Positions 25,688-46,349 of a stretch of DNA of 64,000 nucleotides are shown piece after piece. Source of the stretch: Tetraselmis striata. Taxonomy: Eukaryota; Chlorophyta; Chlorodendrophyceae; Chlorodendrales; Chlorodendraceae. The stretch spans positions 248,001 through 312,000 of the forward strand of contig VCJN01000051.1 in NCBI GenBank assembly GCA_006384855.1, given 5' to 3'. A program made the translations under genes and the position numbers. How positions within the stretch are numbered: the first letter of the stretch is position 1; each line of letters starts with the position of its first letter. The notes beneath the pieces are model-generated. The model saw nothing but the letters and a program-made list of their open reading frames with translations. It was not told the DNA's origin and did not search any database.

Positions 25688-25874
25688 TGATCTAAACTAG
25701 TTTATGGGGTTTCCCTCCTTGACCTAACCGCTTTTTAGCTACAAGTGCTGCTCAGTGGTACGGGAACTAGGCATATGTTGTTGCGCCCTTTTTGGGTGCA
25801 GCACGAGTAGACATAAAAGCAGCCACAACAGCTGAGCCTGCCATCTTCCAGTTTTCGCTGCGTTCCACGCAGCG
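25688..25874 (+). repeat. Family A 5' terminal repeat with end hairpin
   Basis: Starts GATCTAAACTAGTTTATGGG and ends with CGCTGCGTTCCACGCAGCG (25856-25874), an 8-bp perfect stem with a 3-nt loop. The complete unit recurs at 42287-42473. Confidence 0.85.
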
Positions 25875-25987
25875 ATGTAAAAACTGTCTCGTAACCAGTT
25901 GCGAGCAAGGTCACCCCATGTTGTTCAAGACCACACCCGGCTCACCACCCGAGTGTGATATTCTCGTCCGTACGTCCGTGCGTTACC

Positions 25988-26860
25988 ATGCAAGATGGAG
26001 AAGATCCCGTCGCCGAGCCGACGTTGGAGTCGATGAACGCAGATATGAGGGCCCAGTCTTCATTACTCCGAGAGTTGGCTACAGCTGTGGCACAATTGAC
26101 GGCTCATGATCGCGTTGTTGGTGGGGAAGGGGCACATGGCTCCGGCTCCGGGCAGCGCTTCGCGGGACAGCCGACGGGCTTCGGGGGAGCCGCAGAGCGC
26201 CCCGACTTGCTAGAGCTAGCCCAGAGCGGCCGTGTCGGAGCAAACTCCGTGAGTGCCGAGGACGACTACCTCGCGGTGCCAGAGCTACTGCAGAGAGCAG
26301 AGTCAGGTTACGAGGCCGTTCGACCGGTCAGCCGAGTGCCTGGACTTTTCCCCCTGAGCACCGACCTAACGAACGAGTACCTCAAGCAGGACGACCGGCG
26401 TCTGCCGGCCTAGGAGGAGTATTTGTGGATGTCGTGTTTCGGGGCCCACATGGCCGCGCTTTTCGTAGCTCTCGACGAGCTGCTACCTTACGTCCCTGCC
26501 GCTAACCAGGACTTCACCCCCTACCTCGCGAGAGCTCGGAATCACGCCGAGGCCATCGACAAGGCGTTTCGTTTTCGTTTGGCCTTCCTGCGGAGGCTAA
26601 ATGAGATCAAGCGTGTGCACGGTGACCAAGGTGTTTTGGACGTGCTGCGAGCCCAGCATTTTCAGCATGCTTCGGAGCATCTGGGTTCCGCGATTTTTGG
26701 GGACCTCATGAAGGACTACGAGCGTCGTATCTTCGAGGCGACCGTTGCCAGCAGCGCGAAGGCAACCGCTACTGCTCGAGTAGCAGCTGCAGCTGCAGGT
26801 CGCGGGCGTGGGCGAGGACGTGGCGGCTAGCGTGGACGTGGTCGCGAAGGTGAGCACGAG
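25988..26860 (+). pseudogene. Family A ORF1 (Gag-like), copy 1
   Basis: The frame from ATG 25988 reads through two TAG codons (26411-26413 and 26828-26830) that are CAG and GGT-GGA in the intact copy at 39948-40535. The protein has an acidic/Ser-rich start, a helical core with SRVPGLFPLSTDLTNEYLK and FGAHMAALFVALDELL, a segment FRFRLAFLRRLNEIKRVHG, then an Ala-rich linker and an Arg-Gly tail typical of nucleic-acid-binding Gag ends. It is probably a Gag-like particle or nucleic-acid binding protein, by position and composition only. Confidence 0.7.
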
Positions 26861-27179
26861 TGACGGTGTAGGGCGCCTTTCGTCGGAGCTGCTGGAGCTT
26901 TGCGAGGCCACCTTTCGGTGACCGCCGCAAGACGCACCCTTGCAGCGCAACGGCGAGATGAGCGCCCTGTGTCAGGACTTGACCCCCCCACCTTACAGAC
27001 TTCATTTAGACCTTCCTCGGTGCGGCGCTTCTTACAGCTACAGCCGAGTGCGGCTCAACCATCCGCACACCTGCACATGGCGGCTCAACCAACCACCTTC
27101 CTTACCACCTCATCTCTGCGTCCGTTGGTTGTTACACTACGTGTCACAACTGGTTCGCAACGACCAAGTTTCGCGCGGG

Positions 27180-28525
27180 TACGTTGTGCACGAGACAGGC
27201 GCTACGAGCGCGAAGGGCGCGCGGGGCGGCCCTCTTACCTGAACCTAGCCCCGCAAACCCGTACTGAAGCTACTGCAAACCCGTCCAGCAGCTACCGGCC
27301 AACCGCCGGAAACCTAACCGCTGCTGCCGAGTACTTTGCGAACAGTAGTCGTACTGGTGGAACTATGTCGGTAAAACGACGCACGTACGTAATTGACGAC
27401 CCGCAGCTGCCGCTCCGTGGGCTGCGTCACTGCGATCCCGGCTGCAGGATGCGTTCGGCTCGGACGAGCTGGGCCAACGGACGCTCGACCTGCTCTCAAG
27501 CTCCCTCAGTGCTCAGACACTCAAGAGCTACGCCGGCAGACTGTCTCAGTTCGCGGAGTTCTGCCATGACTCTGAGAACATAAGTCCGCTGGAGGCAACT
27601 ACTGCTACTGTCGTTCGGTATGCTGCTTGGATCGGGGAGCGAGGGCACATCGCAGCTAAGTCGCTGCAACCCTACCTGTCCGCAATCAACACGTTCTTCG
27701 AGCTGCACAACCTCGTCCCAATCGCCAAGGACAGTCTACACCTAACTTCAGCAAGGCGTGGGCTGATGCTGCGTCAGCGCCGGCTGGACGCTGCCCCTTT
27801 GCGTGTCCCTCTGGCTGCGGATGTAGCCTACCGCTTCGTCACAAAGGCCGAGATAACTGTGTCTGCTCCTTACCCAGAGTACCACCTCGACTTCCGAGCC
27901 CTCTTGGCCTCGGTTGTCAACTTCATGTTCTTCGCCAAGGGCCTTACTGGCGTCTCCTATCGAGTGCGAGATGTGCATGTCGACACCTACAACATCACCT
28001 TGCAAGTGTACCGCGAGAAGGGTCGCGCTAGCCGACGGGGACCCGACGACCTACGCGTACTTCTCCTTCCGGTGTCCGAGCACCCTCGAGTGGCACGTCT
28101 CTTGCACCACTTCATCGACAACGTCCAATCTGCTCCCCTGGCTGCTGTTGGCTTGGCTACATCAAACTTCTGGGCTGTCACTGCGGCCGAGCAGTCAAAA
28201 CCTTGGACTGCGGCTACAATGTCAGACTGGCTGTCTGCATCCATCAGTCTAGTCAACGCTGCCCCCCCCTGCTGGCACTTCCTGGACTTCACACAGTCTT
28301 CGCAAGGGCGCAGCCTCTGCAGCGAACGCCATCGGAGTGCCATTGTCCCACATTCGCTACCAAGGCGGTTGGGCCACTAACTCTGACGTCGTTCTGGACT
28401 ACATCGACCCCGACGTTCTTCCTTCACCTGGCGCATGGTTCTTCTTTGGACACATCGCCCCCCTACGCCACTTCCAAGTCCAACAGGACTCCGCAACGGT
28501 GGCCTTCCCAGTGCCTCCTTCATGA
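27180..28525 (+). pseudogene. Family A tyrosine recombinase, copy 1
   Basis: An N-terminal core-binding (SAM-like) domain, TLKSYAGRLSQFAEFC to LQPYLSAINTFFELH, is followed by a catalytic domain: FMFFAKGLTGVS (the likely first catalytic Arg position is Lys here), YNITLQVYREKGR, HSLRKGAASAANAIG (H-x-x-R box), YQGGWATNSD and LDYID with the presumed nucleophile Tyr. An extra C in the run at about 28261-28268 shifts the frame just before the H-x-x-R box, and the correct frame resumes to the TGA at 28523-28525. The recombinase would cut and join element ends; this copy is inactive as read. Confidence 0.8.
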
Positions 28526-28604
28526 CTTGGCGCTACCCCTTCTCCGTCAATCCACCGCTCTCTCCGTTCGCTCACGACTGGCAAAACCAGACTCAATTTT
28601 GAAA

Positions 28605-28704
28605 TGATCTAAACTAGTTTATGGGGTTTCCCTCCTTGACCTAACCGCTTTTTAGCTACAAGTGCTGCTCAGTGGTACGGGAACTAGGCATCTGTTGTTG
28701 CGCC
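28605..28704 (+). repeat. Family A 3' direct repeat (partial)
   Basis: Matches the first 100 bp of 25688-25874 almost exactly, then stops at TGTTGTTGCGCC and diverges. Confidence 0.85.
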
Positions 28705-28732
28705 ATATATTAGAGGGGCGGTACCAGTACCT

Positions 28733-28925
28733 GCCGCTTTTAGGCGCCTTGCCGTGTTGATTTTATATTTATGGGGAATTGCCTTTTTTGTAATTCACAC
28801 CAGTACCTGCAGGATGCGGGCCGCTTTTTGGCGGTGGCTTGATGTGTTGATTTTCTAGTACAGTACTACTTTTAGCAACAGGTGGATTTGTTACTGCCCT
28901 TTTTGTAATTCACACCAGTACCTGT
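28733..28925. repeat. Two tandem copies of an about 80-110-bp repeat also found at 39769-39858
   Basis: Each copy has GCCGCTTTTAGGCG-like, TGTGTTGATTTT, CTTTTTGTAATTCACACCAG and TACCTG words. A third copy sits just 5' of family A copy 2. The second copy is expanded by about 35 bp. Confidence 0.8.
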
Positions 28926-28943
28926 AAGGATTACTGTACCAGA

Positions 28944-29137
28944 TTTCAAAGTTGAGTATGATTTTGCCAAAAAGGTCGCGCAGGCTTTTTTACACGGTCA
29001 AGAGCCGAAATTGGCAGGATGGTTTAGCGAAAGCGTGGAGGGAAAACGGAGTCAGGGGGGGCGCTGCGTGGAAAGCAGCGAAAACTGGAAGATGGCAGGC
29101 TCAGCTGTTCTGGCCGCTTTTATGTCTACTCGTGCAG
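28944..29137 (-). repeat. Inverted copy of the family A terminal region
   Basis: Reverse complement of about 42395-42591 nearly throughout, including the AAACTGGAAGATGGCAGGCT segment shared with the 5' repeat. It gives copy 1 inverted ends in addition to direct repeats. Confidence 0.85.
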
Positions 29138-29260
29138 CTATAGTTAAATGAGCTAAGGATTACCGTCCCTGTATCCTCCGCCGCCGCCCAACCTGTCAGG
29201 ACGCCGGTACGACAACTCGCCCTTTCGATCGTCACTTCGAGACGACCGCCGCTGTGCGTC

Positions 29261-32056
29261 ATGATTCGCCCGGCGATCCCTCCGTGGACTTCCTCCGCAG
29301 CGAAGCTGTTGCTTCTGGGGTGCTTTTGTGGCGTATTTGTGGAAGGGCTCAGCGACTTCTTATTGGGGGGACTCCCCGGCAGCGCGCAATCTGTGCCGAA
29401 CCCGGACGGTCCAGGCTGGTGCAGCGATGTCGGACACCGGTCCTGCCAGGGCGGTGGACGGCTCAACCCTTTTGGATCTGACTTTAAATCGCAAGGGCAC
29501 AGGTGGACGACAGAGCTGTGCCGCCGAGACTCGGACGGCGACGGGCTGACCAATGGGGAGGAGGTAATGTTTCGTATCGCCCGAGGTGGTTGCGTGTGCG
29601 AGTAGTGGAGCTACCCGGTTCGTTGACCGGCTTCGAGTGATGCACGAATCGTCTCAATCATCGCTTATCGGGATGGCTGGCGGCATTGCAAGGTCATTCG
29701 TGTGCTGCAAAAGGGCTGTGGAGACTACACTTCTGGCGCCAAGGCGTCGACGTCGTGCGCTCGTTCCGCGACGTGGCGCCTCGCGCCCAGGGGCAGCAAA
29801 ATGGCGTCGGCACTGGGTGGCAAACGAGACGGAACGATAGGTACTCGTAGGGACGAAACGGCGGAGATTAATAACCGACTGCTCGACGGCCGTGGGTCTT
29901 CGCGTCGGCCTGCACGGTGGTGAATGTTGAGACCACACAGCGTCGCTCTGGTTACTTTCTTTGCCGTCATAGGCGCTGGGGAAGCAAACAGAGTGAAGCG
30001 ATGGAGTGTACCTGTAGTGACAACAGCTGCGTGCGGTATCGCGGCACTGACTTTGGTGCGGCTCGTGCGCCTCAGCTGGGCGATCCCTGCTGCACCTGGA
30101 AACCCGGAGCAGATGCGGACCTGTTATTTCAAACTGCGGCGAGCCATCCAGGCTTCCCCCAGTCGGTGCCTTCCGCGGAAGCTCAGGCCACGCTGGATAA
30201 GGTAAACCCCCTCTCACCTCCCCAAGCCACCGACAACACTCTCACAAGCATAAAATTACTGTCACATATGCGCGCCATCTACTGGATATTGTGTCTGGCT
30301 GTAAGCCGTGAACTCGCCATATCTGAACAAATGGTTTTCGAAAGCCCCCCGTTGTTGGTCGCTACCGGTACCTGCACCACGCTAAAGTAGTCGCATCCAA
30401 CACCGGTTAGGAAGGAATATGGACAATCATCCAGCAAGGGTTCACAATGCTGTGGTTTCATCGATCAGATGGATGTGTGTACGTTTGATGGAGGCGTCGA
30501 TGATGTGGTGATGATCTTGCAGTTGCTCCTTCCGTTTGTGCCTAGGTGGACTGCTGCAAGGTCCAGCGGATGCCGAGGCGCGACCATGTGCTCCTCGGGA
30601 GCACAAGCTTCTACAATGAGGGCGAGGATGTGCTGTCCAAAACGATGCTGATGACGCACACATCAGGCACAAGCGAGACGCAATATGTGTATTTCTTTAT
30701 CGATCTGGGCACGACGGACGATGGGTCTCCTTGGGAAGACCCGCTCTACATGGTGGGATGGACGGTCAACTTCGGTCTGGCGGGCTTCGTGCATCACGTG
30801 GTCCTGCACGGCTGCACCGACAAGAAACCCGCCCAAGACCCGCCGCGCTCGGGGGGATACATGCCCTCTGGGCCAACGGCCATGGCTCAGCTCAGGAAAG
30901 GGTGTGGCGCATACATTGCTACTGCCGAGCTAGGGCAGCATGAGTACGCCTTGCCACGTGATGTTGCAACGCCGCTGGGACCCGGGACGCAGATCAGGAG
31001 ACTTCTGGCACAGGTAATTCCAAGATTTGCCTGACTCTCGACCTGCACTGGAGTTGGCACACTTTGGCTTGCGCTGATGTGATGCGTTGCGAGAGGCTGG
31101 CCGAAGATTCCTGACGTATACATCTGGTGGCTTCCCAGGTGCACTACAACAATCCGCAACATACGCCTGGGTTGCTGGACCACACGTCAATCACGGTCCA
31201 CCTCACCAGCGCACCCCGCCCCCACGCTGCGGGTATCTGGCGCCTAGGTGATGGTTTGATGGAGGACAAGGTCATACCTCCTGGTGAGGCTTCGTGGCAC
31301 GTGTCCAGCAGGTGCGCCTGCCCACCCTTGCGGCTGCTATCGAGCCTCCTGGCCTGTTCTGCACCAACCTCGGCAATGTCAGCGTGTTTGGCGTGTTGCC
31401 AACTGTTGAACACGAATCGCCTCAGCGCATGCTCTGCGCTGCCTTACGCCGGCGTAGCACGGCATCACTGGCGCAGCCCTGCACAGGGATGCAGAATCAC
31501 TTGGATTATGCACTGTGCCTCCAGTTGACCTCATCCTTCTTCGGGGATGCCAATTCGCCGCAGGTGCCTGATCCTCACCAGGAATGAGCAAGAGGTCACG
31601 GTGTTTGCACACCGACCGCACATGCACCTTCATGGCAGCCGCTTGTGGTCAGAGAAGATGCACGTGAGTGGGAACCTTCGCTCGGACAGCGCCTGGCAGG
31701 ACGCGGTCTTTGCTGCGCGTAGCGGCAAGTCCCTGGAGAGGCTGGCAGGGACAGACCACTACGACTTCCGCTCGCAAGTGATATCCAACATACACCCACG
31801 GCTCGTCCTCCGCCACGGCGACGTCGTGACCACGACCTGCGTGTTCAATACTACCCACGAGAGGCGCTATGTGCGAGGTGGAACGGGAACTCAGGCGGAG
31901 ATGTGCATGCACTGGTTTTACATATATCCCGAGAGTGCAGTGAAGCTCGTGTGCTCACACGACAAGCGCTTCTCAGGGCGGTGGCCGCAGGAGCTGTCCT
32001 CTGTGGCACAGCATTCGCAGGTGCTGCAAGATCTGATGCGTCCGAGTGGATTGTGA
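29261..32056 (+). CDS. Secreted temptin-domain / copper type II monooxygenase (DBH/PHM-like)
   Basis: Five exons fit with continuous phase: 29261-29563, 30076-30201, 30546-31013, 31139-31311 and 31582-32056, giving about 514 residues. A hydrophobic leader (about residues 14-30) is followed by a temptin-type domain (GHRSCQGG, NPFGSDF, DSDGDGLTNGEELGDPCCTW, SHPG). Then come the two halves of a copper type II ascorbate-dependent monooxygenase: HH at about 226-227 (FVHHVVLHGC), VHYNNP at about 300-305, HMH at about 370-372 and EMCM with the copper Met at about 464. All the expected copper ligands I can check are present, so the enzyme looks intact. The family hydroxylates carbons of small molecules or peptides using two coppers and ascorbate; the substrate here is unknown. 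A secretory location is inferred from the leader and Cys content. The stop is TGA. Confidence 0.9.
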
Positions 32057-34301
32057 TTCAACTGGACTGAAGAATGCGGCAGCGGCTAGGTAGGGGATCC
32101 CAATGCGAAGATTTATCGCAGTCGGATCCTACTACGACGAAGGCAACATTGCCCCAACTAGTCAGAGGTCCTTCAGTGCCTCAGTGATCCTTTGAAGGAC
32201 GATTTCCCAAACTGGCGAACAGTTCAGCATAGGATGTTGCCGCTCATTCAGACACATCCCGCATAAAATCAATTGCAAATCTGATTTGGGAGCTCTGATA
32301 ATATTAACTTTATTTTTAAGGATTAATTATTACTACACCTCTCCATATAAGTATGGGGTTTTTGGATTCAATGGACATGCCCATACGCGGCTTAATTGAG
32401 TCATTGCGGCTGTGTGCGAGTATATGCATCAGGGTCATACGACTTGAAGGAAATGCTTCGATAGCGCAAAAACCCCGATGTTGCCACGCGGGAGCCGCTG
32501 CCATCCCCCCACAACACTGTCATTTAGTCAAAAACAGAGCTTCTGGCGCCTGTGCTTCAAAACCGCAAAATGCGACATCCATGTGCATACATATCCATGA
32601 GACACCACTGCCCCCTACTCGTGTACCTCGTTACCTTTGGTATAAGAGCTATCCACCATGTGTGTAGGGCTTTGACATGAGGTCATTCTGTGAATTAGGC
32701 AAGCCCTATATGTAACGATGCCGCTAGGAGCAAAATGCAGTAAACATGGAAAACATGTTGCTGTGATCGTTGCATGCGGCAGAAGGTTCTTGCCGCCTCC
32801 TGCTGTCCGCAAGGCGAAGCTTTTCTGCAGTAGAGCCTGGCCATCGTGAGCCGAGTGGCGCGGGAATTGCGGAGAGCGAATTATCGTCAACTTGGTTTTT
32901 GGGCCTTGAAATAATCTGATGAAAAATGAATTCTTTGTCCGCGGATAGGATTGACCCTAGTTTTTTAGAAGATGAAAACGTTATTGTAAGGTTATACTGA
33001 TAACTTGTTTGGTCAAGTAAAATGCTGACCTATATTTGATTAGTTTAAATAAAACGAAAAAACGGTACAAAATAACTAGTATTTTACCCGTTCCGTGCAT
33101 TTTAAGGAGTGCATGCTGGTGGCAATAATGCTAGGAAAGCGGGTATCCAGAATGGCGGACATGGGCATCGCTTTTGGAGGGGCATGTGCCAAGTCTGAGT
33201 GTTCTTCACACGAGTTCACCCAACACTACACTGTCACGCCACCGGGTATTAACTAGGGTTTGAAACCCACTTGGCGTAAAGTTCCACGCCTATGTGGTGA
33301 CTACACGACGTCACGGATATCAATTTCGACCTTTTACTTTTAACAATTCGAGCGCCTAATTTAAAACCTCGGACAGCCTTGGTGCTATCACGGGGATTGT
33401 CGCCCTTCTAGCGCAAAACCGTGTAAATTTCAGAGATGCCCCACATGGCAGCACTGCATTGGTGATGATATATCATGCCACATCGTGCACGGGCGCCCGC
33501 CACCATGGCCCCACCACACCCAACAACGCCCCAGCCTCTTTGCTGACATATTTCCTTGCCCATTCATGGCCATCCCAATGTGCAATGTTCCATACATGCA
33601 CGGCGGCAAGTGTGGGACACAACGGGTAAAGCAAGTGGGGGTACTTGAAACGTCTAATGTGGCGCCAGGACGGCCACTCTTGTGGTATGACCCTATAGGG
33701 TCATAGGGTTTAATTCAAACCCTATGATGATAAAGGCTGAACATAACTGTGCGCAACATTCCAGGATCGTACACCATATATTCAGCTACCCTGTCTATCA
33801 TTCTTGAACGGGTTTTCAATCAGATTCAGCGCAAAAGGAGGAGTGGGACGGTATGTTGAGGGGTGTGCATAACAGAGCTTCTATACCCTCGACCTGATGC
33901 AGGAAGGTTTTAAGCCAAATGCATTGACATTTCAGTACCAGCTTGTGTACACGCCGTATCAAACTACTGCTGCTGTCGCAGCATCAGGTCGATGCACAGA
34001 TGCGGTTGGATTGCTGCCAGGGGCGGGGCATCACATGCGCTCATCGTCACAACTGCAGCATCACATAATCATGGAAGTGCCGCACGTCCCCCTCCAACGA
34101 TAAGCAATGAAGAGCGAAAGCGAACCCAGGCACAGGCTCGCCAAAAGCACTCTTTTCATGGTCGGCGGTCATGGTGGGCTAGGTACTACATGAATTCACT
34201 GTCGATCCAGGTTACCAGGCCCAGCACTCCTGCTGCTCAACCTTGTAGATCACATGAGTATGCGGCTAGGCTGTCATTCCCGTGAGGAGAAGCAACCTCA
34301 T
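32057..34301. other. Intergenic between two convergent genes, no gene seen
   Basis: 3' flanks of the monooxygenase (+) and hslU (-). AT-richer patches occur at about 32280-32340 and 32930-33080. A perfect short hairpin TCATAGGGTTT/AAACCCTATGA lies at about 33702-33728. Frames in this stretch show no domains. Confidence 0.5.
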
Positions 34302-36114
34302 TCACAGCACGTACTTGCTCAGGTCCATGCGGCTCATGAGCGGGCCGACTGACTTCTGCACATCCTCCAGATCGATCACCCGCTTGGCCTCTGTGCCGTT
34401 TGCCTTGGCCTCGGCTACAATCTCTGGCGCGGTGAAGGAGATGTCCTCCAGGATGCGCTCAAGAATAGTGTGCAGACGGCGGGCCCCGATGTTGTCCACG
34501 CTCCTGTTCACCTCTTCCGCCACTCGGGAGACTTCGTTCACAGCGGCGTCGGTGAACTCTAGGGTCAGTCCCTCAGTCGCGAGCAGCGCAACCTGCTGCT
34601 TGATCATGCTATTTTGAGGCTCGGTCAGGATGCGGTAGAAGTCCTTGCTGCTGAGGCCCTGTGAATGGAGGCAACACATGCCCGGAGTGGCTGAGCTGCA
34701 GATCCGATTATCCTGGGATTAAACAGGTGACGTCCTAGGATATCCTACGACGAGTATTATCCTGCAAATATCCTATTAGGATATTCTGTCCCGCTCCCGT
34801 ACCATGACAGGATGTCAGATACTTTTGCATTCGATTCGACTTTCGCATTAGCGTGCTAACCGGTTATAATGGTCTTGAGTTAAACTGAATTCATCCTTAG
34901 ACGCAGTTACATTTCGTTGTCCCCTGCGCGAACGACGCGCCGCCGTGTCCGCCGCGCCAGGGCCGCCTTACACGAATGACGGCTGCTCAACGGTATCAAT
35001 CTGTCTCCTGGGAGTCGCCGCCCCCAACCAGTATTGCAGTTGAGCAGCATGTCCTTAGCACCTATTCCATGCGTGTATATGTTCTTTCCTCTAGTAGTCG
35101 CTTCGCGTCCATCATGGGTCGCTCTGTCCCTTGTCAGTTTAACGCTAATCTAGCGGGGGAGAAGGGGAGGGGGGGGGGGGGGGGGGGGGGGCAATGATAT
35201 GGACCCTCTCTGGACGATCGGTAGCATAAATTGGGCGTGCACGGCAATGTGAAACACATCGTCAGCATCAAATCGGTGCGTAACAGCATGCCAACGCGTA
35301 GTGACTAATCCTTATCACTATTTATTGGCGCTGCAAGGACGAGGTCAGGGCGAACCTGATAACAAGCGATGCGGCTTGTAATAGGTAGTGAAGGATATGT
35401 GAGGCAATAAGCCAGCTGTGTGCTGAGCTGTTCACAGCTACTCGAATATGTATACATAGATACATGGACACATACATATACGGGTATACATTTCACATCA
35501 CATCGCCAACACAATAAGCCAGAGGAGCTGGGACACCGCACATGGGCAGAGCGCTGAGCAGACAGCAATAGTACGTGCTGCTCTTGTGCAGGAGAGCAGG
35601 GAGGGGCACCTTGAGCTCCACACGAATGGGCAGCCGCCCCTGCAGCTCCGCCATCATGTCCGACGGCTTGCTGGAGTGGAACGCGCCAGAGCAGATGAAC
35701 AGGATGTGATCGGTCTCCACGTTGCCATGCCTGTGGCAAACACGACGATCAGCGCTCGTACTCCCGAGGCTGGATCGGGCGCAAGCAGGCAAGGCAGGGC
35801 CGCGGCAGCCGGGCAGTTGCGCACTTTGTGGACACAGTGGAGCCCTCAATGATGGGCAGCAGATCCCGCTGCACCCCCTCGCTGCTGGCATCCGACCCAT
35901 AGTTCCGCGACTCGCTGGAGACGACGATCTTGTCGATCTCGTCGATGAACACGATGCCGTCCGCCTCCGTGCTGGCGAGGGCCTCCTTCACCACAGCCTC
36001 CTGGTTGATCAGCCGCTCCGTCTGCGCCTCTTCGATCAGCGGCCGGGCCTCGCTCACCTGCGCGTCCACCCTCGCTGCCACTCAGCCCCCCCCCCCCCCC
36101 CCCCCCCCCAAACC

Positions 36115-36155
<41 letters not shown>

Positions 36156-37684
36156 CCAGATGGAGCAAATCAAGAAACCTGGGTACGTTGCCATGCTCAG
36201 GATGCCACCGCAGACAGCAGCAACTGCAAGCAAAGCGGGCGGCCTACCGTCATCTTCTTCTTCCCCTCCTTCTTGCCAGGCTGCCCCAGCGCACGGGTCA
36301 AGGCTACCTGGATCTCCTGTGATTGCAGCGTTGGGCTCAGTGATTCAGACATGTCAGCCCCCCCTCCCCGCCGCGCGTGCCCTGCGAGGTTGGAGCGCGT
36401 CAGGCAAGGCTGCACAGATGTGCCAGGGTACGGCATGCTTTGTGTCCCATGCACCTGCAGCGAAAGACAATCAGCGCGCAAACCTGCGCAGGGTTGTTGC
36501 CGCTGAGGTCGATGGCGGTGGGCATGCGGGACGCGGGCCTCTCGTACTCCACGGTGCGGTTGTCCAGCTCGCCCTGCCCCCCAGGAGCACCCCACGGAAA
36601 GCCCCCAGCACCCGGCCGCAGTCAGCCATCCGCCAAGCAAAGCACAGCAGGGTGCTTACGCGGGCGGGTGCAGCGCTCACCTCGCGCAGCAGGGTGCGGA
36701 ACGACTCGCGGGTCTGGTCGCCCGCCTCGCCGTCGCTGCCTGTCAGCAGGTCCAGCAGTTTCTCCTCCACCGCGTGGCTCAGACTGGAGGCGATCTCCCG
36801 CTTCATGCGCGCGCGCGTATGCACAATGGCGTTCTCCACCAGGTCGCGGATGATCTGGTCCACGTCTCGGCCGTGGTACCCCACCTCTGTGAACTTGGTG
36901 GCCTCGACCTGCCGCAAGCGGATGCCCTCAGGCATTGCCCCCACTGGCCATGCAAGCAGCGAATGCAGGCGGGGAAGGGAGGGTGGTTGATTTTTTTGAA
37001 AGGGGCGGAGGGCAGGAGGGTGCCTTGACAAAGGGCGCATCCGCCAGCTTGGCAAGGCGACGCGCAATCTCCGTCTTGCCGCAGCCAGTGGGGCCGATCA
37101 TCAGGATGTTCTTCGGAACCACCTCCTGGCGAAGATCCTCCTGGAGCCGCATGCGCCGCCAGCGGTTGCGCAGCGCCACCGCCACGGCCTTCTTCGCGTC
37201 CGCCTGGCCGATGATGAACTTGTCCAGCAGCTTAACCACCTGGTGAGGCAGCGCGCGCCCCGTCCACTCATCAGCATGTCCTCGTGCATGCTGACCCATC
37301 CGCACCCGCATCCCCATCCAATCCCCGGTGACCCCCTTCTCCCTCCCCAGGCGAGGCCGCTGGTCGAACCGTGGTGGGCGTCAACGCATCCAGCTGCTGC
37401 GGTTCTACATCAACCCCCGCTGCAGGCTCAGCGTCCGCGGGCTTGTCGGTGCCCTCTGTGGCCACCTCCGGTGCGCTGGCAGCAAACCCCCTGGTGCGAG
37501 CCCCGGCGAGACCTGGTGGCGCAGGAGCTGCCCGGTCTACCGGGAGCCGAGATGCAAACGATGAGGTGAGGAGGGCGCCATGTGGCCGGCACGCGAGGAC
37601 GCCAGGCCAGCTGCTGCTGGCCGCGGCTGGCCCACGTGCCAGCTGCAGCAGCAGCCGGCGCTGCCGCAGGACGGCCGCGCCCAT
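34302..37684 (-). CDS. hslU: HslU (ClpY) AAA+ unfoldase of the HslUV protease, mitochondrial-type
   Basis: Eight exons fit with continuous phase: 37684-37370, 37239-37024, 36908-36681, 36573-36484, 36316-36248, 36057-35825, 35730-35610 and 34658-34302, giving about 542 residues. Residues 1-100 are Arg/Ala/Ser-rich without acidic clusters at the start, fitting a mitochondrial presequence. Next are [19 protein letters not shown], Walker A GPTGCGKT (about 154-161), [15 protein letters not shown] (pore region), a variable I-domain (about 230-300), Walker B VFIDEID (about 342-348), [22 protein letters not shown] and a C-terminus ending MDLSKYVL, the tail that docks into HslV. HslU unfolds substrates with ATP and feeds them to the HslV peptidase. 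HslV is not in the window. The intron after 37024 must begin with GC (AAG then GCACCC) to keep the family sequence FVK-VEATKF. Confidence in identity is very high. Confidence 0.95.
36086..36153. repeat. C-tract plus (CA)n in an hslU intron
   Basis: A run of about 23 C at 36086-36109 is followed by (CA)n at about 36114-36152. On the sense strand this is (TG)n then a G-tract about 30 nt before the acceptor of exon 36057-35825. Confidence 0.95.
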
Positions 37685-38419
37685 GTGGCTTCTTCCTCGC
37701 CTCTGGGGGTAGGCACCGCGCAATGAGGTAAGGGGAGGGGGAGTTGGTAAGCGGAGCGCGGTGTGCTGCCAAAGAATCCTAGTGGCTCGGGAAGTTTCCA
37801 GGGGGGTGAAGTGGCAGGGGGGGGGGTGGGGGGGGGTGCACACAGCACTGGCAGAGTCGTTGAGCGGGCGGCAGGGCTGCAGCGGGCTGAATTAGGGAGC
37901 CGGAGCAGATGGGGCGGAGGCTGCGGGGGCGGGGGAGGGGGGGATTTGGCTGGGCACGTGGGGGATATCGTGAGAGAAGTAGGGGTGGGGGTGGGGGTGG
38001 GGATGGTGCGCACCCTCTCCCCCGAGGGATGAGACAGAGGAACTAGGCACACGACTCGGCGCGGTTCACAAACTCCGCGGCAGCAGCAGCACTGCGCTGG
38101 CGAAGTAAACGGGCCGCCGGTGCACCGCTCGGACGCGCGAGCGACCACCTAAGAATGGTGGCGGTGCTGACGCCGTGCTATTCTTTTCACTCACGATCCG
38201 TTTCAACCGGCACCTCTGAAGCAGGATCAGTGACAGCGCCACGCAGGCGCAATGGGTTGCCGCTCGTCGGCAAGGGCGCGCCACGCCGTGCCAGATCGAC
38301 GGCGATGAGCAGTTTTTTTCCCGCCCCCGGGACAGGACTGGCACCAGTGAAACCCTTGCAGAAACCCGATGAGCAGTACCAGCCGTACCAGTACCGGATA
38401 CCGGATACCGGATACCGGA
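37685..38419. other. hslU 5' flank, G-rich
   Basis: Probable hslU promoter side. G-clusters lie at about 37817-37838, 37929-37942 and 37980-38004 (GGGGTGG repeats) and could form quadruplexes. Four CCGGATA-type repeats lie at about 38393-38422. No coding sequence is recognised. Confidence 0.5.
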
Positions 38420-39794
38420 TACTAGGAACTCCGGCACCAACACCCCCACCCCTGGTTTCTTCGACCCACAGCTCGGGTCCGTACTTGGCCGAGGCAGCTT
38501 CAACGCAAATTCTTCCGCCCGCCAGTATGACCACTTCCTCAACGATGCTCATGGGTCGGACAGCTACGCCGCGGAGATGCGCGAGGCGTGGGGCCGCCTC
38601 CAAGCGGCTACTGCTGGCCATCTCGGCGACGCAGATGCACGCCAGATGGAGCGGGAAGTGGAGGCTGCGTCGGGCTCGCAAAAGGAGCTGACGGCATTTC
38701 TAGACCAGGCCAACAACTCTCGGCTTCGAAATGAGGTGTGCGCTCTCCCTGCCACATGTAGGGAACGGATCTTGTTCAACCAGCTCGACGCGGCGTCAGG
38801 CATGTGGACAGTGGCCATCCCCACCGCGCGGACAGCCATGACTCCGCATGAGCTGCGGGAGGTCGCTGCCGGGTACTTCTTTCTGCCTAGCCCGTGCTTG
38901 GCCCCGGTGGTTGGGTGCCAGATTATTCTGCCCTCGACGGAGCACAACCCCGTCATTGTTGATCTATACGGCGACGCGCTCATGAACCTCCCGGCGCCTG
39001 GAGACGCTCACTGGCGTGTACAGCACGACGCTATCGCAGATGCCTTCCGCGATCATTGTGTTCACGACCTAGGTATCGCGGTACGGCGGGAGGTGGATGA
39101 CTTGTTCCAGCAGGCAGTGCCTCTCGGCAACACCGTACCCCGGGATGAACTCAAGGACCTAGTGCCGGACGCAGAGCTCTCCCTTCCGGCGTTCAACGTC
39201 GTGACCGGGAGCTATGATCCCCGGAGCTTGAAGTCCACGCTGCTAGAGTTCAAGACTATGCGGTACGGGGTCAAGTACACTTCAGTGCCCCGGGCCACAG
39301 CTGTGGATCGGTTTGAGCGCTCCCTGTTGGGCGACATACAACGGGGGTTGGCTGCGCGGGACGCGGCGTGGCACAACACAGAGCCCGGACACAAGGGTCC
39401 TCTTCGAGACATCTTGGATATGTCGGAGTACACGGGCATGGTCTTCGGCACAGTGGGTGAGGTGAGCAAGGGGGTGCACCGCACAGTGCGTGGTATCGCA
39501 TGCTTGGCTGCGGACCGGGGTGCCCTCTCATCGCGGGGCACTCGGTGCATCACCCGAGCTCACCAGGAGGCCTTGCTCGCAAGAGATTTCCTCGGGGTCC
39601 TGAGCTTGGTAGCCGCTCGAGAGCGTGCTCGCTGCCTCATCAGACGGCGCAGATTCGTCTCCCATCCCGTTGCTGAAGCTGCACAGCACGTCCGAGGATC
39701 ACCCACACACACACGTGGTCGCGTGGCCCGGACTCTGAACCGTGTGCGCATCACTCATCCATCCCGCCTTATGCGGGATGCGGGCCGCTTTTAG
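38420..39794 (+). CDS. Retroelement-type ORF with PD-(D/E)XK-like motif; probably 5'-truncated
   Basis: An open frame with an ATG at 38577 (405 residues to the TAG at 39792-39794). The same frame stays open and protein-like upstream to about 38420 (FFDPQLGSVLGRGSF), so 38577 is probably not the true start. Conserved-looking blocks are YFFLPSPCLAPVVG, HWRVQHDAIADAF (about 145-157), VRREVDDLF, and DLVPDAELSLP with LLEFKTMRYG, which gives PD (197-198) and E-x-K (224-226), the layout of a PD-(D/E)XK nuclease core. I recall similar domains at the ends of algal reverse-transcriptase proteins, but no RT is present here. Residues after about 330 look unconserved. A fragment of the 5' part recurs at 51352-51490. 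Nuclease activity is inference. Confidence 0.55.
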
Positions 39795-39902
39795 GCGGCT
39801 TGCTGTGTTGATTTTCTAATTCTGGGGAACTGCCCTTTTTGTAATTCACACCAGTACCGGATACCTGGTACTCCGCGGGTACTGAGTGCCGATCAGAGCG
39901 GC

Positions 39903-40535
39903 CGTGTCGGAGCAAAATCCGCGAGTGCCGAGGATGATTACCTCGCGGTGCCAGAACTACTGCAGAGAGCAGAGTCTGGTTACGAGGCCGTTCGACCGGT
40001 CAGCCGAGTGCCTGGACTCTTTCCCCTGAGCACCGACCTAACGAACGAGTACCTCAAGCAGGATGACCGGCGTCTGCCGGCCCAGGAGGAGTATTTGTGG
40101 ATGTCGTGTTTCGGGGCCCACATGGCCGCGCTTTTCGTGGCTCTCGACGAGCTGCTGCCCTACGTCCCTACCACCAACCAGGACTTCACCCCCTACCTTG
40201 CGAGAGCTCGGAACCACGCCGAGGCCATCGACAAGGCGTTCCGGTTTCGTTTGGCCTTCCTGCGGAGGCTAAATGAGATCAAGCGTGTGCACGGTGACCA
40301 AGGTGGTCTGGACGTGCTGCCAGCCCAGCATTTTCAGCCTGCTTCGGAGCATCTGGGTTCTGCGATTTTTGGGGACCTCATGAGGGACTACGAGCGCCGT
40401 GTCTTCGAGGCGACCGTTGCCAGCAGCGCGAAGGCGACCGCTACTGCTCGAGTGGCGGTTGCAGCTGCAGGTCGCGGGCGTGGGCGAGGACGAGGCGGTG
40501 GACGCGGACGTGGTCGCGAAGGTGAGCACGAATGA
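39903..40535 (+). CDS. Family A ORF1 (Gag-like), copy 2, open frame lacking its 5' end
   Basis: The frame is open from about 39903 to the TGA at 40533-40535. It keeps the helical core (VPGLFPLSTDLTNEYLKQDD; FGAHMAALFVALDELL), the FRFRLAFLRRLNEIKRVHG block and an uninterrupted Arg-Gly tail. It is the best template in the window for what ORF1 looks like. Function is by analogy to Gag only. Confidence 0.65.
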   Translation, partial: RVGAKSASAEDDYLAVPELLQRAESGYEAVRPVSRVPGLFPLSTDLTNEYLKQDDRRLPAQEEYLWMSCFGAHMAALFVALDELLPYVPTTNQDFTPYLARARNHAEAIDKAFRFRLAFLRRLNEIKRVHGDQGGLDVLPAQHFQPASEHLGSAIFGDLMRDYERRVFEATVASSAKATATARVAVAAAGRGRGRGRGGGRGRGREGEHE

Positions 40536-40861
40536 CGGCGTGGGGCGCCTTTCGTCGGAGCTGCTGGAGCTTTGCGAGGCCACCTTTCGGTGACCGCCGC
40601 AAGACGCACCCTTGCAGCTCAACGGCGGGATGAGCGCGCTGTGTCAGGACCTGACCCCCCCCCCCCCACACACACACCTTACAGACTTCCTTTAGACCTT
40701 CCTCGGTACGGCGCTTCTTACAGCTACAGCCGAGTGCGGCTCAACCATCCGCACACCTGCACATGGCGGCTCAACCAGCCGCTTTCTTTACCCCTCTCTG
40801 CGTCCGTCGGTTGTTACACTACGTGCTACAACTGGTTCGCAACGACCAAGTTTCGCGCGGG

Positions 40862-42207
40862 TACGTTACGCGCGTGACAGGCGCTACGAGCGCGAAGGGC
40901 GCGCGGGGCGGCCCTCTTACCTGAACCTAGCCTCGCAAAACCGTACCGATGCTACTGCAAACCCGTCCAGCAGCTACCGGCCAACCGCCGGGAACCTAAC
41001 CGCTGCTGCCGAGTACTTTGCGAACAGTAGACGTACCGGTGGAACTCTGTCAGTAAAACGACGCACTTACGTAATTGACGAGCCCGAAGCAGTCGCTCCT
41101 TGGGCGGCTTCATTGCGATCCCGGCTGCAGGACGCGTTCGGCTCAGACGAGCTGGGCCAACGGACGCTCGATCTACTCTCCAGCTCCCTCAACGCTCAGA
41201 CACTCAAGAGCTACGCCGGCCGGCTGTCTCAATTCGCGGAGTTCTGCCATGACTCCGAGAACATTAGCCCGCTTGAGGCAACTACTGCCACTGTCGTTCG
41301 GTATGTTGCTTGGATCGGCGAGCGAGGGCACACCGCAGCTAAGTCGCTGCAACCTTATCTGTCTGCAATCAACACGTTCTTCGAGCTGCACAACCTCGAC
41401 CCAATCGCTAAGGACAGCCTACACCTAACTTTAGCGTGGGCTGATATGATGCGTCAGCGCCAACTGGACGCTGCCCCTTTGCGTGTCCCTCTGCCTGCGG
41501 ATGTAGCTTATCGCTTCGTCACAGAAGCCGAGCTGATTGTGTCTGCTCCCTACCTAGAGTACCACCACGACTTCCGAGCCCTCCTGGCCTCGGTTGTCAA
41601 CTTCATGTTTTTTGCAGGGGCCTTATTGGCGTGTCCTGTCGAGTGCAAGACGTGCATGTCGACGCCTACAACATCACCCTGCAAGTGTACCGAGAGAAGG
41701 GTCGCGCTGGTCGACGGGGACCCGACGACATGCGCGTACTTCTCCTCCCAGTGTCAAAGCACCCCCGAGTGGCACGTCTCCTGCACCACTTCATCGACCA
41801 CGCCCAGTCAGTCCCCATTGTTACTGTTGGTTTGGCTGTGTCAAACTTCTGGGCTGTCAGTTCGAATGAGCAGTCAAAACCTTGGACTGCGGCTACAATG
41901 TCAGACTGGCTGTCCACAGCCGTCCGTCTAGTCAATGCTGCCCCCCTTGCTGGCACCTCCTGGACCTCGCACAGTCTTCGCAAGGGCGCAGCCTCTGCAG
42001 CGAACGCCATCGGGGTGCCATTGTCCCACATACATTCGCTACCAAGGCGGTTGGGCCACTAACTCTGACGTCGTTCTGGACTACATCGACCCCAACGTTC
42101 TTCCTTCACCTGGCGCATGGTTCTTCTTTGGACACATCGCCCCCCTACGCCACTTCCAAGACCAACAAGACTCCGCAGCGGTGGCCTTCCCAGTGCCTCC
42201 TTCATGA
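40862..42207 (+). pseudogene. Family A tyrosine recombinase, copy 2
   Basis: The frame is continuous from about 40862 (RDRRYEREGRAG) through the core-binding domain to FMFFA at about 41617, where one base is lost at the first catalytic Arg region. Coding resumes in another frame from about 41631 (VDAYNITLQVYREKGR) through HSLRKGAASAANAIG. A 4-bp ACAT duplication at about 42028-42035 then shifts the frame again before LDYID. The lesions differ from those of copy 1, so the two copies decayed independently. Confidence 0.8.
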
Positions 42208-42286
42208 CTTGGCGCTACCCCTTCTCCGTCAATCCACCGCTCTCTCCGTTCGCTCAAGACTGGCAAAACCAGACTCAACTTTGAAA

Positions 42287-42473
42287 TGATCTAAACTAGT
42301 TTATGGGGTTTCCTCCCTTGACCTAACCGCTTTTTAGCTACAAGTGCTGCTCAGTGGTACGGGAACTAGGCATCTGTTGTTGCGCCCTTTTTGGGTGCAG
42401 CACGAGTAGACATAAAAGCAGCCAGAACAGCTGAGCCTGCCATCTTCCAGTTTTCGCTGCGTTCCACGCAACG
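42287..42473 (+). repeat. Family A 3' terminal repeat (complete)
   Basis: 187 bp matching 25688-25874, ending with the imperfect form of the terminal hairpin (CGCTGCGTTCCACGCAACG). Confidence 0.9.
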
Positions 42474-42591
42474 CCCCCCCTGACTCCGTTTTCCCTCCAC
42501 GCTTTCGCTAAACCATCCTGCCAATTTCGGCTCTTGACCGTGTAAAACAGCCTGCGCGACCTTTTTGGCAAAACCAGACTCAACTTTGAAA

Positions 42592-43111
42592 CGCCTCTAC
42601 CAACCATATATCTAGAGGAGATACAGGCAACCTCGTCTATAAGGTAGTACTGCGGCGTGGCATGTAGGATCTGACACCGCTACTCAGCGCCGTTAATGAT
42701 ACCCAGACTAGTACGTATCTACATGTACCTCGTACCGTTATCGCTGGTTGGGCCCGCCGGACGTCGCCCAAGAGCAGGTTGCGCCCCTGCGCCCCAACAC
42801 CTCCGCTCCAAGCACAATCATGCCTACATATGGGCCGATCCCGCGGAAGGGCAGTGGAGTTAACCGTGGTGTGTCCGACACTAGCTCCAATCGTGGCGCC
42901 TGGAACGTTAAGCTTAACTGCCGCAACATGGGCTTTTCGAACATATGAGAGCATAGCCGCTGCATAGGCGACACTTTATTTCCCGGCCGAGTTTTCGGAG
43001 GTTGCATGTAATTCCGCGCGCCGGCCAAACCGCGCGCCGGCCCCGCGCGCGCGTGCGCAGCGCAATATAATATTATTGTCGCAAGCAACAAGGCCAATCA
43101 TGCGACTATGT
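42592..43111. other. Spacer between two YR elements
   Basis: No gene is recognised. A CGCGCGCCGGCC-type GC patch lies at about 43013-43058. Confidence 0.45.
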
Positions 43112-43393
43112 TTAGAGCTGTGTTCTTCGGGTTTCCTTCCCCTCTCTTGAACCTAGGGTATGCGGTCGTCGACAACCGGCTGCCCGCGGCCTCTGCGCCA
43201 CGCCAAATTGACGCGGCGGCCACAAAGCAATGGACGCCCGCCATACAGTCTTGGTGCTTTAGCACTAAAATGCTAAATTACGTGATTTTGCGTGCCGAAA
43301 ACATCGGTCATCCCATCATGTACCCATCAAATCCTATAACACCATCATCGTGCGCTAGATGGGACCACTCTTATAGTTTCGTGTTGGCCTCAT
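43112..43393 (+). repeat. Family B 5' direct repeat
   Basis: Shares AACCTAGGGTATGCGGT, CGCCACGCCAAATTGACG, TTGGTGCTTTAGCACTAAAA and CTAGATGGGACCACTCT with 46066-46349, in the same order. Confidence 0.85.
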
Positions 43394-43493
43394 GTCCACA
43401 CAACACTAACTCGCGGTTTTGGACCGTGCACAGTGCTCATGCCCTTGGAAACGGCGGTGCTAACCTTCCACCCTCCGCTGTCGTTGCTACTAC

Positions 43494-44519
43494 ATGACCA
43501 TCTCAAGCCAAGGCTCTTCTCTCTCTTCTCCCAACGGCGCCCTCCCGGACGACCCCTTCGATATGTCAGGCAGCGGCTCACCCACCGGTCCCAAGATGGT
43601 CGACGACGGCAAGGCGGCGGCTGTCGAGGGTGTCGAGACGTCGGACATTGCACAAGCGCGCATCGAGGCGGGGCGTCGTTCGGCGGAAGACGCCCGAATG
43701 AGACAGCTCATCCATGAGAAGCTCCCCAAGTTCTTTGCTGCCCAAGAGACTCCTATGCCGCCGACTGCCGTCGGCGAAGAGAAACGAGTCCCGCGCCGGT
43801 GGTAACGTCCGAGCTACCTTCGCTCCCTTGAGCGAACCCCACTATACCTTGATTGGCAAACTGCCTTCGCTATATCCTATGCCATGCTTGGATAATGGGA
43901 TGCCTCCCGACAGTCGGCGACGCGCCCGGGGCTTATCCTCATGTCCCTCGACCGCGTGCTCGAGTACCGCCTGCTCGGCAACCCTCGTCTTCAGCCGGAA
44001 GCGGACGAGCACTACCACGCCGCGTGCTACGGGGCCTTCATCGCCGGCATGGCCATCGAGTTGCGCAAGTTGCTAGCTGCGGCGTGCGTCACCAACGGGG
44101 TTCCACCAGATTTCGGATAGCGGCTCGAGGCCGTCGTCCACAGCATGGAGACCGTTGACGACGGTAATCGGTTCCACTTGGCCTACCGTCGCAAGCACTG
44201 GGACACGCATATGCCCAACGGGGACACCTTCGACCTCGATGTCGTGCGGGAGCGCTACTTCCGCCATGGCACCGAGAACATGGGGTCTCCCGAGTTCGCC
44301 GAGGTGCGGGAGCTCTACAAGGACCGCGTATACGACGCGAACATCACGAGCGATGCGAAGACATCTGCTCGTCCGCGCTTCGGCGGTGGCCCCATGCGCA
44401 ACGACCGCGACTGCGATGATAAGGGCGGCGTCAGCCGCGACAACTTCAAGAACTTGCGCATGGCGGGACTCCCTCACAACCACTTACCCACATGTCGGGG
44501 TCGTCGTCCTTCCTCAAAT
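43494..44519 (+). pseudogene. Family B ORF1 (Gag-like), frame-broken
   Basis: Starts with an open frame at 43494-43805 (Ser/Gly/Asp-rich). After a frame change it continues with LGNPRLQPEADEHYHAACYG and AFIAGMAIELRKLL (about 43960-44080), aligning with the RLPAQEEYLWMSCFGAHMAA block of family A. A TAG follows at about 44118, then a tail with RYFRHGTENMG. The shared blocks, not any known domain, support the ORF1 call. Confidence 0.65.
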
Positions 44520-44639
44520 AAGTCAACGCCTCCGGCTTCATTCTGTCCTTCTACATCACAAGTCTACACCGACTTCCCCTTTTTGGCGCGCCCATCCCGT
44601 CATGCCTCGCTAACCCTCTTTGCGCGTCACTCGCACAAC

Positions 44640-46008
44640 GGCCTCTCGCGGGCGGCCCGACAGGCAAGTACTCGCGCGACGCCCGTTACGAGCGAGATTA
44701 TCGGCTACTCATGGCCCCGCCTACAAACCGCCTTGCACCAGCGAGCGCCATCGTCAAACCATGCAGCGGCGTACGGTGCGTCTCGGCGCGTCCGTCGCAC
44801 CACAAAGTCTCCTCCGCACTATATCGCAGACGCCGAGACTAAGTTCCAATGGAGCTAGCTCATGCGAGGCAGCATCGAGGCTCTGTAGACGACTGGGGCG
44901 CCAATGTGCTCGACCTCGTGACTACGCCGCTCACGGCCAGCACCAACTCGAACTACAAGGGCAAGATACGCCTCTTCGCCGATATCTGCGTCCACGAGGC
45001 GGAAGGCCTCTGCCCTCTGGACTGCACCGAGGCCACGTGCGTCCGCTACCTCGCATGGATTGCGGATGAGCGCGGCACCATCGGTGCCGGCTCCATGCAG
45101 CTCTACCTCTCCGCCATCAACATCTTCCTTCGTCACAGCGGTCGGGGCGACGCCCCGGCTACTGGTCCGGCCATTATTGACATGAAGCGCACGCATCAAA
45201 TCCGTCAGCTACTCAATACTGGCGAGAAGTTTCGGCGCGCCCCGCCCCTGCCGTGCGACGTCATCATCGACATCCTCGACGACCTTGCTACCCCTCCCAC
45301 GACCACCACCGAATACGGCAGCATCCTTCGCGACGGTGCAGCGGTGTGCTCGACGTTTATGTTCTACTCCCGTGGCGAGTCCAGCGTCTCCCCCCGATTT
45401 CGCGACATGGCCGTCGACGCCCACAACATCACCATCTTCGACAACCGCGAGAAGGCGGGACATCGAAAGCGTCGAGACGGGTTCCAGCCCCTACTCCAGA
45501 TCCTTGCCACCGCCGTGCCTACTTGGAAAAGCCTTCTAGGCCGCTTGGCTATCTACCGCGACGCGGCGTTCCGGGCATCCCCCTCCGCCAATCAGCAACC
45601 CGATCAATTTTGGGCGCTCCCCGGCGCTGGTGCTACCCCACCCCTTACGTGGAATTATGCCGCTACCTTTGGTGACTGGCCCAAGCGGGCCGTCGGCCGC
45701 ACCAATCGACCCCCCCCCCCCCCCCCCCCCCCCGCGAAGGCTTATTCGTGTGGACCTTGCACTCCGCCTTGCGGACGGGCGCGGCGTCGGGCGCAAACAC
45801 AGCTGACGTGCCCTTGGACAAAATCCACCACTTGGGCGGATGGGCCCGCAATTCTGCGGTAATCAACGACTACATCGACCCAACTACGCTTCCTATCCGC
45901 GGCGCCGCGCTCATGTTCAGTTGGCTCTCTCCCACATTAGTCCTTCGCAGCCTTCTCGGAAGCTCCCCGGCTCCGTCGGGCGCCGCCCCGCCCCCTCGAC
46001 AGCCATGA
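44640..46008 (+). pseudogene. Family B tyrosine recombinase, split by a C-tract
   Basis: The open frame at 44849-45862 carries the core-binding domain (YKGKIRLFADICVHEA to MQLYLSAINIFL) and catalytic block MFYSRGESSVSPRFRDM with the first Arg intact, then VDAHNITIFDNREKAG. A run of about 20 C at 45711-45733 shifts the frame. The missing C-terminal boxes, HSALRTGAASGANTA, GGWARNSAV and INDYIDP, follow in another frame at 45748-46008. Upstream, 44660-44845 has a frame with SRDARYERDYR matching the N-terminus of family A YR. The H-to-R spacing is one residue longer than in family A. Confidence 0.78.
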
Positions 46009-46065
46009 AGACCGAGGTGGCTAATCTCCCTTGCCTACCACCCTTTGAAAATGTGTAAGTCTTAG

Positions 46066-46349
46066 TTCTTGGGGTTTCTTTTCCCTTCCTTAAACCTAGG
46101 GTATGCGGTGTCGACAACCGGCTGCGCGTGGCCTCTGCGCCACGCCAAATTGACGTGGCGGCCACATAGCATGCAATGCACGCCCTCCGGGCAGTCTTGG
46201 TGCTTTAGCACTAAAATGCTGAAGTACGGCACTTTTGCGTGCCGACCTCAATTGGCGAAAATATCGGTCACCCCTAGTACCCGTCGAATCCTATAAACTC
46301 ATCATCGTCCGCTAGATGGGACCACTCTCTTAGTTTTTTGCTGGCCTCC
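46066..46349 (+). repeat. Family B 3' direct repeat
   Basis: Partner of 43112-43393 with about 80-85% identity by eye. Confidence 0.85.

Follow-up and report, generated by a model that had tools for sequence, protein, structure and literature searches.

A two-gene tyrosine-recombinase lineage with split direct repeats and no detected reverse transcriptase in Tetraselmis striata

The stretch analyzed here (the window) comprises 64,000 nucleotides (nt) of Tetraselmis striata DNA, from positions 248,001 to 312,000 of contig VCJN01000051.1 (assembly GCA_006384855.1). It contains copies of two diverged families of mobile elements, A and B, each built of a first open reading frame (ORF1), a tyrosine recombinase (YR) encoded by ORF2, and long direct repeats, with no reverse transcriptase (RT), as the original prediction from the window alone had proposed. 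Judged by their sequences, the two families are homologous branches of one RT-less lineage. This is probably an old lineage of split-repeat YR elements that lacks an RT and RNase H of its own and has persisted as a two-gene element by means of an RT provided in trans. By anatomy it works like a split-repeat YR retrotransposon; it departs from that group in RT and RNase H, neither of which was found in the A/B sequences analyzed.

The host genome comprises 224 Mb in 2903 contigs, and L-numbers designate loci taken from it. A family-A query gave 2113 first-look candidates genome-wide, of which the best 40 were scored, and a family-B YR query gave 9200, with the best 119 scored. In 29 of 30 family-A loci, ORF1 and YR are collinear with copy 1 of the window, some with small insertions, gaps or a duplication, and 22 of the 30 match copy 1 in a single alignment of at least 2.6 kb; L016 is cut short and retains the YR part only. 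For B-type elements we paired 119 of 126 YR matches (7 secondary pieces left out) with 149 of 151 ORF1 matches (one secondary and one unlisted match left out). A listed ORF1 lay on the same strand within 12 kb of 43 of the 119 YR places, and the projected gap was 681-1117 nt in 33 of these 43 pairs and longer, 1218-9051 nt, in the other ten.

Both ORF1 and YR are under purifying selection in both families. In sets that include decayed copies, the median pairwise ratio of nonsynonymous to synonymous divergence (dN/dS) was 0.45 for the family-A YR (434 of 435 pairs below 1) and 0.44 for its ORF1 (402 of 404), with 0.53 for the B-type YR (528 of 528) and 0.55 for its ORF1 (691 of 698). The non-coding A2 repeat, described below, showed no third-position excess. 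The collinearity in family A, the short gaps in family B and this selection uphold the earlier argument that the RT-less plan is not a deletion in one copy.

The original prediction had left room for two separate lineages, a view that the comparison of A with B does not sustain. Their ORF2 products are 31-35% identical overall (13-16% in two frameshifted rows) and their ORF1 products 22-33%, and the internal repeat junctions (B1A2, see below) align better than 1994 of 2000 Markov-resampled controls. Because both proteins are homologous and the junctions align, A and B are not independent and share one RT-less ancestor; two independent RT losses are ruled out on the same grounds. One ancient RT loss at the root of the A/B clade is possible.

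Pfam searches with the A and B ORFs matched no RT or RNase H model, and the A ORFs that were run matched no Dam-like methyltransferase. The same genome does hold RT-bearing YR-type elements with split repeats, L061 and L062, which served as a positive control. L062 has a Gag with a zinc knuckle and in Pfam matches RVT_1 at 1.9e-15, RNase H at 3.5e-6 and Dam at 1.2e-6; L061 matches RVT_1 (1.6e-6, just below cut-off) and Dam (1e-11), and in this element neither a Pfam match for the ORF in Gag position nor a match to RNase H was obtained. Their YRs were assigned by position and by motif by eye, the best Pfam value being 0.078. In tblastn searches with the RT, Gag and YR of both elements against L001-L084 and the window, only L061 and L062 themselves matched (E<0.01), and in the complete element L099 nothing passed 0.1. 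Such a search can pick up distant RTs of this type, since the L061 RT retrieves its L062 counterpart at 23% identity.

We also compared the positions of 61 L061-type and 74 L062-type RTs (merged by hand from 102 and 89 rows, respectively, that repeated RT loci) with 119 B YRs, 149 B ORF1s and 40 A YRs. No listed RT of these two DIRS/PAT-like types lay inside the reach of a listed A/B element. Among the places listed, three pairs were closer than 12 kb (5960, 9698 and 10025 bp), and in the nearest the RT element, measured on L062, would stop about 2.3 kb before the YR. The RT lists hold the best 75 of 844 candidates for the L061 query and the best 78 of 3212 for the L062 query, so that the comparison is not a census. 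A genome search with PF00078 listed the best 150 of 3001 candidates, mostly gypsy-like by shape. A decayed L061-type RT lies on the window's own contig at 316239-317816, about 4-6 kb past the window end. Elsewhere, Dam-like matches less than about 2.5 kb from RVT_1 (C230, 77895/80242; C2480, 38755/36857) perhaps represent a methyltransferase in an LTR-type (long terminal repeat) element.

Relatives with RT and RNase H between ORF1 and YR, which would make A and B simple deletion derivatives, were thus sought and not found among the listed places. It is nonetheless conceivable, if unlikely, that RT-bearing members of the same YR/ORF1 clade exist or were recently lost and supply all functions, the ORFs of A and B being leftovers. 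A rare RT-bearing parent could be missed when the best 40 of 2113 and the best 119 of 9200 candidates are scored, and non-autonomous copies may outnumber their parents, as stated for Cryptons (PMC3212892). Of the ten long-gap ORF1-YR pairs, three were examined and contained no L061- or L062-type RT. Two findings speak against this origin: in each of the two deep branches both ORFs are under purifying selection, and no RT was found within the A/B loci examined or the reach of the listed places. As deletion derivatives specifically of the L061/L062 type, A and B would be expected to have a matching YR, Gag or ends, and none of these was found. An end motif common to L062 and A/B was suggestive by eye, failed the resampling control and was dropped.

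The repeats flanking the two genes had been predicted to be direct, which they are, though split rather than plainly flanking. Family A has the plan A1 (187 nt), ORF1, ORF2, B1 (26 nt) joined to A2 (187 nt), 92 nt, B2 (26 nt), seen in 19 copies plus L099, in which the complete element measures about 3.2 kb. In the 19 copies with both ends, the left end is TGATCTAAAC in 14 and one base off in 2; it is TGTTTTAAA in L028 and L029 and rearranged in L005. Right ends are TGGCAAAACCAGACTCAACTTTGAAA or near it, with a GAAA end in 18 of 19 (preceded by at most a few mismatches), followed by C or T; L010 stops before GAAA. As the 26-nt B also stands directly upstream of A2, the internal junction TTTGAAA/TGATCTAAAC has the sequence that arises when the right end of an element is joined to its left end. 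For family B, the split repeats were recognized by visual inspection of the window copy (L031), where B2 is only a possible remnant, and the other B-type loci extend too short a way leftward to show A1. When 30 B-type loci, L031 included, were searched with a strict pattern modelled on that copy, the B1A2 junction (TTGAAA-TG...GGGGTTTC) was found downstream of YR in 7, where resampled sequence gives a mean of 0.03; the remaining 23 are without the pattern or decayed.

The arrangement A1, B1A2, B2 is thus that of PAT- and Ngaro-type elements. The repeats are direct and not inverted, unlike DIRS1-like elements with their inverted terminal repeats and internal complementary region, and at 187 nt (A) and 26 nt (B) they differ from the short terminal direct repeats, without long ones, of Cryptons.

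The copies in the window are composed as follows.

25688..25874, plus strand: family A copy 1, A1 (187 nt), the left one of the split direct repeats (element left end TGATCTAAAC, set by genome copies)
25988..26863, plus strand: family A copy 1, ORF1, Gag-like, with in-frame stops (coordinates by eye)
26861-26863: family A copy 1, terminal conserved TGA of ORF1
26864..28525, plus strand: family A copy 1, ORF2, YR with N-terminal extension, degenerate
28579..28604, plus strand: family A copy 1, B1 (26 nt)
28605..28704, plus strand: family A copy 1, A2, broken off after about 100 nt
28944..29138, minus strand: family A copy 1, tail (A2-spacer-B2), displaced and inverted, matching 42397-42591 at 96%
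39752..39857, minus strand: uninterrupted repeat copy, empty site for the family-A insertion L002
39894..40535, plus strand: family A copy 2, ORF1, 3' part, including the RG-rich tail and the stop TGA (40533-40535)
40536..42207, plus strand: family A copy 2, ORF2, YR, frameshifted
42261..42286, plus strand: family A copy 2, B1
42287..42473, plus strand: family A copy 2, A2
42566..42591, plus strand: family A copy 2, B2, in which the element ends on the right with ...TTTGAAA
43109..43391 (right end approximate), plus strand: family B, A1 (left end agrees with genome junctions by eye)
43494..44520 (end approximate), plus strand: family B, decayed ORF1 region, a homologue of ORF1 in family A
44849..45930 (end approximate), plus strand: family B, YR core
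46020..46051, plus strand: family B, B1 (...CCCTTTGAAAA), joined to A2
46052..46348, plus strand: family B, A2
46383..46399 (approximate), plus strand: family B, possible B2 remnant (by eye)
52700..53475, minus strand: decayed ORF1 fragment of a family-A-like element

The predicted boundaries needed some revision. Copy 1 (predicted at 25688-29137) is an element with a rearranged right end, its A2 being broken near 28704 and its tail inverted; GGTACC-rich repeats at 28705-28943 split this end. Copy 2 (39893-42591; L001) is likewise an element, truncated at the left so that it begins within ORF1 at about 39894, and matches copy 1 at 92% across 26222-28704. The fragment at 52666-53475 is family-A-like as proposed; it is what remains of an ORF1 on the minus strand, in decayed form and from 52700 onward. 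An ORF of 405 aa at 38577-39794, immediately left of copy 2, has no match in Pfam.

The ORF2 product, of up to 553 codons in family A, matches SAM_1 (4.6e-7) and, under its cut-off, Phage_integrase (6.6e-4) in Pfam, and matches Cre at 0.0012. The YR residues R...HxxR...W...Y are all present by eye. Its predicted structure is poor, with a predicted local distance difference test (pLDDT) score of 39, and searches of viral contigs with YR and ORF1 found no relatives. In the family B window copy the catalytic C terminus is out of frame beyond a C-tract near 45713-45733, and the Pfam SAM-like match reaches only 0.081.

In family A, ORF1 runs open for about 315 codons and ends in an RG-rich tail. 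The spacer of about 600 bp that had been placed between the two genes derives from decayed copies; in better copies it is an open YR frame running back to the ORF1 stop, in the frame of ORF1. This stop reads TGA in all 29 distinct family-A copies in which the site is present (2 further loci lack it), and TGA stands in L099 too (1427-1429). A B-type scan, which was not blind because its filter required a flanking motif, recognized the junction in 19 among 45 loci: 17 TGA, 1 TAA and 1 GGA. The continuous frame across a conserved UGA suggests that YR may be made as a Gag-YR fusion through UGA readthrough. In B-type copies an ATG overlaps the ORF1 stop (GAATGATGG) and could permit re-initiation; we rejected this route, as the ATG is not in the YR frame and is absent from most family-A copies.

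The region just after the stop evolves more freely, with a dN/dS of 0.60 for residues 1-60 and 0.72 for residues 61-130 against 0.21-0.47 downstream. The third-position excess, analyzed without L003, L006, L015, L016, L020 and L024, is missing at 1111-1260 of the reference copy. Part of the former spacer may therefore be a loose linker or an intron. The excess is also missing at 151-350 (ORF1) and 1961-2160 (YR), which makes the measure noisy.

Insertion sites and repeats bear on how the elements move. Compared with the empty site GCAGTTC/CCCAG, the flanks of L002 meet exactly: no base has been duplicated and none is missing, at 90% identity across 110 nt. This empty site is a related repeat copy in the window (39752-39857), not an allele, and was the only one found for 19 joined flanks searched among the loci taken from the genome. 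Precise insertion without target-site duplication is thus seen at a single site, where the exact joining of flanks fits YR integration. The dispersed repeat, a target of family A at L002, occurs in the window at 28733-28807 and 39784-39858.

In family A, the divergence of A1 from A2 within a copy is 0.0268, compared with 0.0346 between copies, 0.0413 for A1-A1 and 0.0276 for A2-A2 between copies. None of 2000 random re-pairings of A1 with A2 was as low as the within-copy divergence. In 18 cases both repeats of a copy have a variant in common, where 4.75 would be expected without linkage; 58 variants are found in A1 only and 35 in A2 only. In the young copy L099, A1 and A2 differ at 1 of 187 positions and share ten columns that depart from the family majority; an edge artefact accounts for one of the ten. 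This concerted evolution within copies favours template copying in each cycle, that is, retrotransposition; it is consistent with an RNA intermediate and is not direct evidence of one.

A contrasting mechanism would be that of a Crypton-like DNA element, in which YR would excise a DNA circle and insert it with no RNA stage, the repeats serving as sites of recombination and ORF1 encoding an accessory protein that binds DNA or RNA. YR is indeed the only enzyme recognized, and B1A2 would be a ready-made joined-end site. In L011 (reverse complement, 2702-3862), tandem A2-spacer-B2 units with a period of 348-349 nt stand beside a full element; their presence means that such sites undergo either DNA recombination or tandem copying as well, and they may reflect recombination at the DNA level. 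Cut-and-paste leaves the concerted evolution of A1 and A2 and the amplification unexplained, however, and Cryptons are described without terminal inverted repeats or long direct repeats (PMC3212892), so that we regard this mechanism as rather improbable.

Most copies seen are decayed, those of the window included, and even L099 has a premature stop in ORF1. One might thus see in A and B nothing but decayed repeats recombining among themselves, with no functional element in recent time. This is hard to hold, and to us scarcely credible, given the complete 3.2-kb structure of L099, its open YR frame and its 99% identical A1 and A2, the six copies (L099 among them) with identical score in one genome search, and the precise empty site. 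The lineage is large, old and recently mobile.

In the trans-dependent reading we prefer, ORF1 protein would package the element RNA and a helper RT acting in trans would copy it into a circle, whose end junction would be regenerated from the internal B1A2; the element's own YR, presumably produced as the Gag-YR fusion, would then integrate the circle. RT borrowed in trans had been suggested by the original prediction, and the concerted evolution of A1 and A2 favours that part of it.

Several results weigh against this reading. No helper RT was identified when YR, Gag and ends of L061 and L062 were compared with those of A/B. Their YR and Gag showed no significant relation to A/B in tblastn and hhalign (on single sequences, hhalign aligns the YR motif regions with a probability below 1%). 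Nor are the ends of L061 and L062 significantly similar to those of A or B: resampled controls aligned with A and B as well as the L062 ends did in 154 and 610 of 2000 cases, and as well as the L061 ends in 808 and 1742. The element and RT searches both scored top candidates from far larger sets. The A2-A2 divergence between copies (2.8%) is almost as low as the within-copy value; the contrast is owed partly to A1 varying more, and it is the re-pairing test and L099 that carry the argument. In L007 (L065/L007), A1 starts with TGATC and A2 with TGTTT within one copy, contrary to simple templating. Finally, ORF1, predicted to be Gag-like, is conserved and selected and has the RG-rich tail, with no Pfam, NCBIfam or PDB match (an EBNA2-type low-complexity Pfam match is below its cut-off) and a poor predicted structure (pLDDT 43). 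Since it lacks a family match and a good model, we infer Gag from position, predicted helices and the RG-rich tail.

A related view, which we hold as a tentative and less likely alternative, is that A and B form a distinct YR class that has been RT-less through its whole radiation, with Gag, UGA and YR in one frame, using either a heterologous helper RT or an RT-independent circle with B1A2 regenerating the ends.

Among known systems, the split-direct-repeat plan has been described for Ngaro and PAT elements (PMC8547959, PMC4157794). PAT, Kangaroo and TOC of the DIRS order share with A/B the arrangement A1-ORFs-B1A2-B2, a YR and ORF1 in first position, but possess a methyltransferase together with RT and RNase H (PMC4157794, PMC3266345), none of which we found in A/B. 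DIRS1-like elements also lack a target-site duplication (PMC3266345). Ngaro and VIPER have split direct repeats and the order Gag-like ORF1 ... YR (PMC8547959), yet encode RT-RNase H; solo AB repeats are reported for Cafeteria Ngaros (PMC8547959). Cryptons, like A/B, have a YR without RT; their terminal direct repeats are short or were not found and YR is the main gene (PMC3212892), whereas in A/B the split repeats are long and an ORF1 is conserved. SIRE, a non-autonomous VIPER derivative, is RT-less with its ends kept, but retains little besides them (PMC6681497), whereas A/B keep two genes under selection. L061 and L062 have split repeats, a joined-end junction and a YR, but differ in carrying RT and Dam. 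Neither the literature searches, which did not extend to Repbase or to most of the subscription literature, nor the excerpts of PMC8547959, PMC4157794, PMC3537659, PMC3783388, PMC3212892, PMC6681497 and PMC3266345 revealed a lineage that has both Gag and YR but no RT.

It has been proposed that YR retrotransposons arose from a Crypton-like YR element and an LTR-type RT (cited in PMC4157794 and PMC6681497). A diversified lineage with a Gag-like ORF1, a YR and retroelement ends but no RT may represent either stable dependence on functions in trans or a state between Crypton-like and retro-type elements, and it makes testable whether split direct repeats by themselves require reverse transcription.

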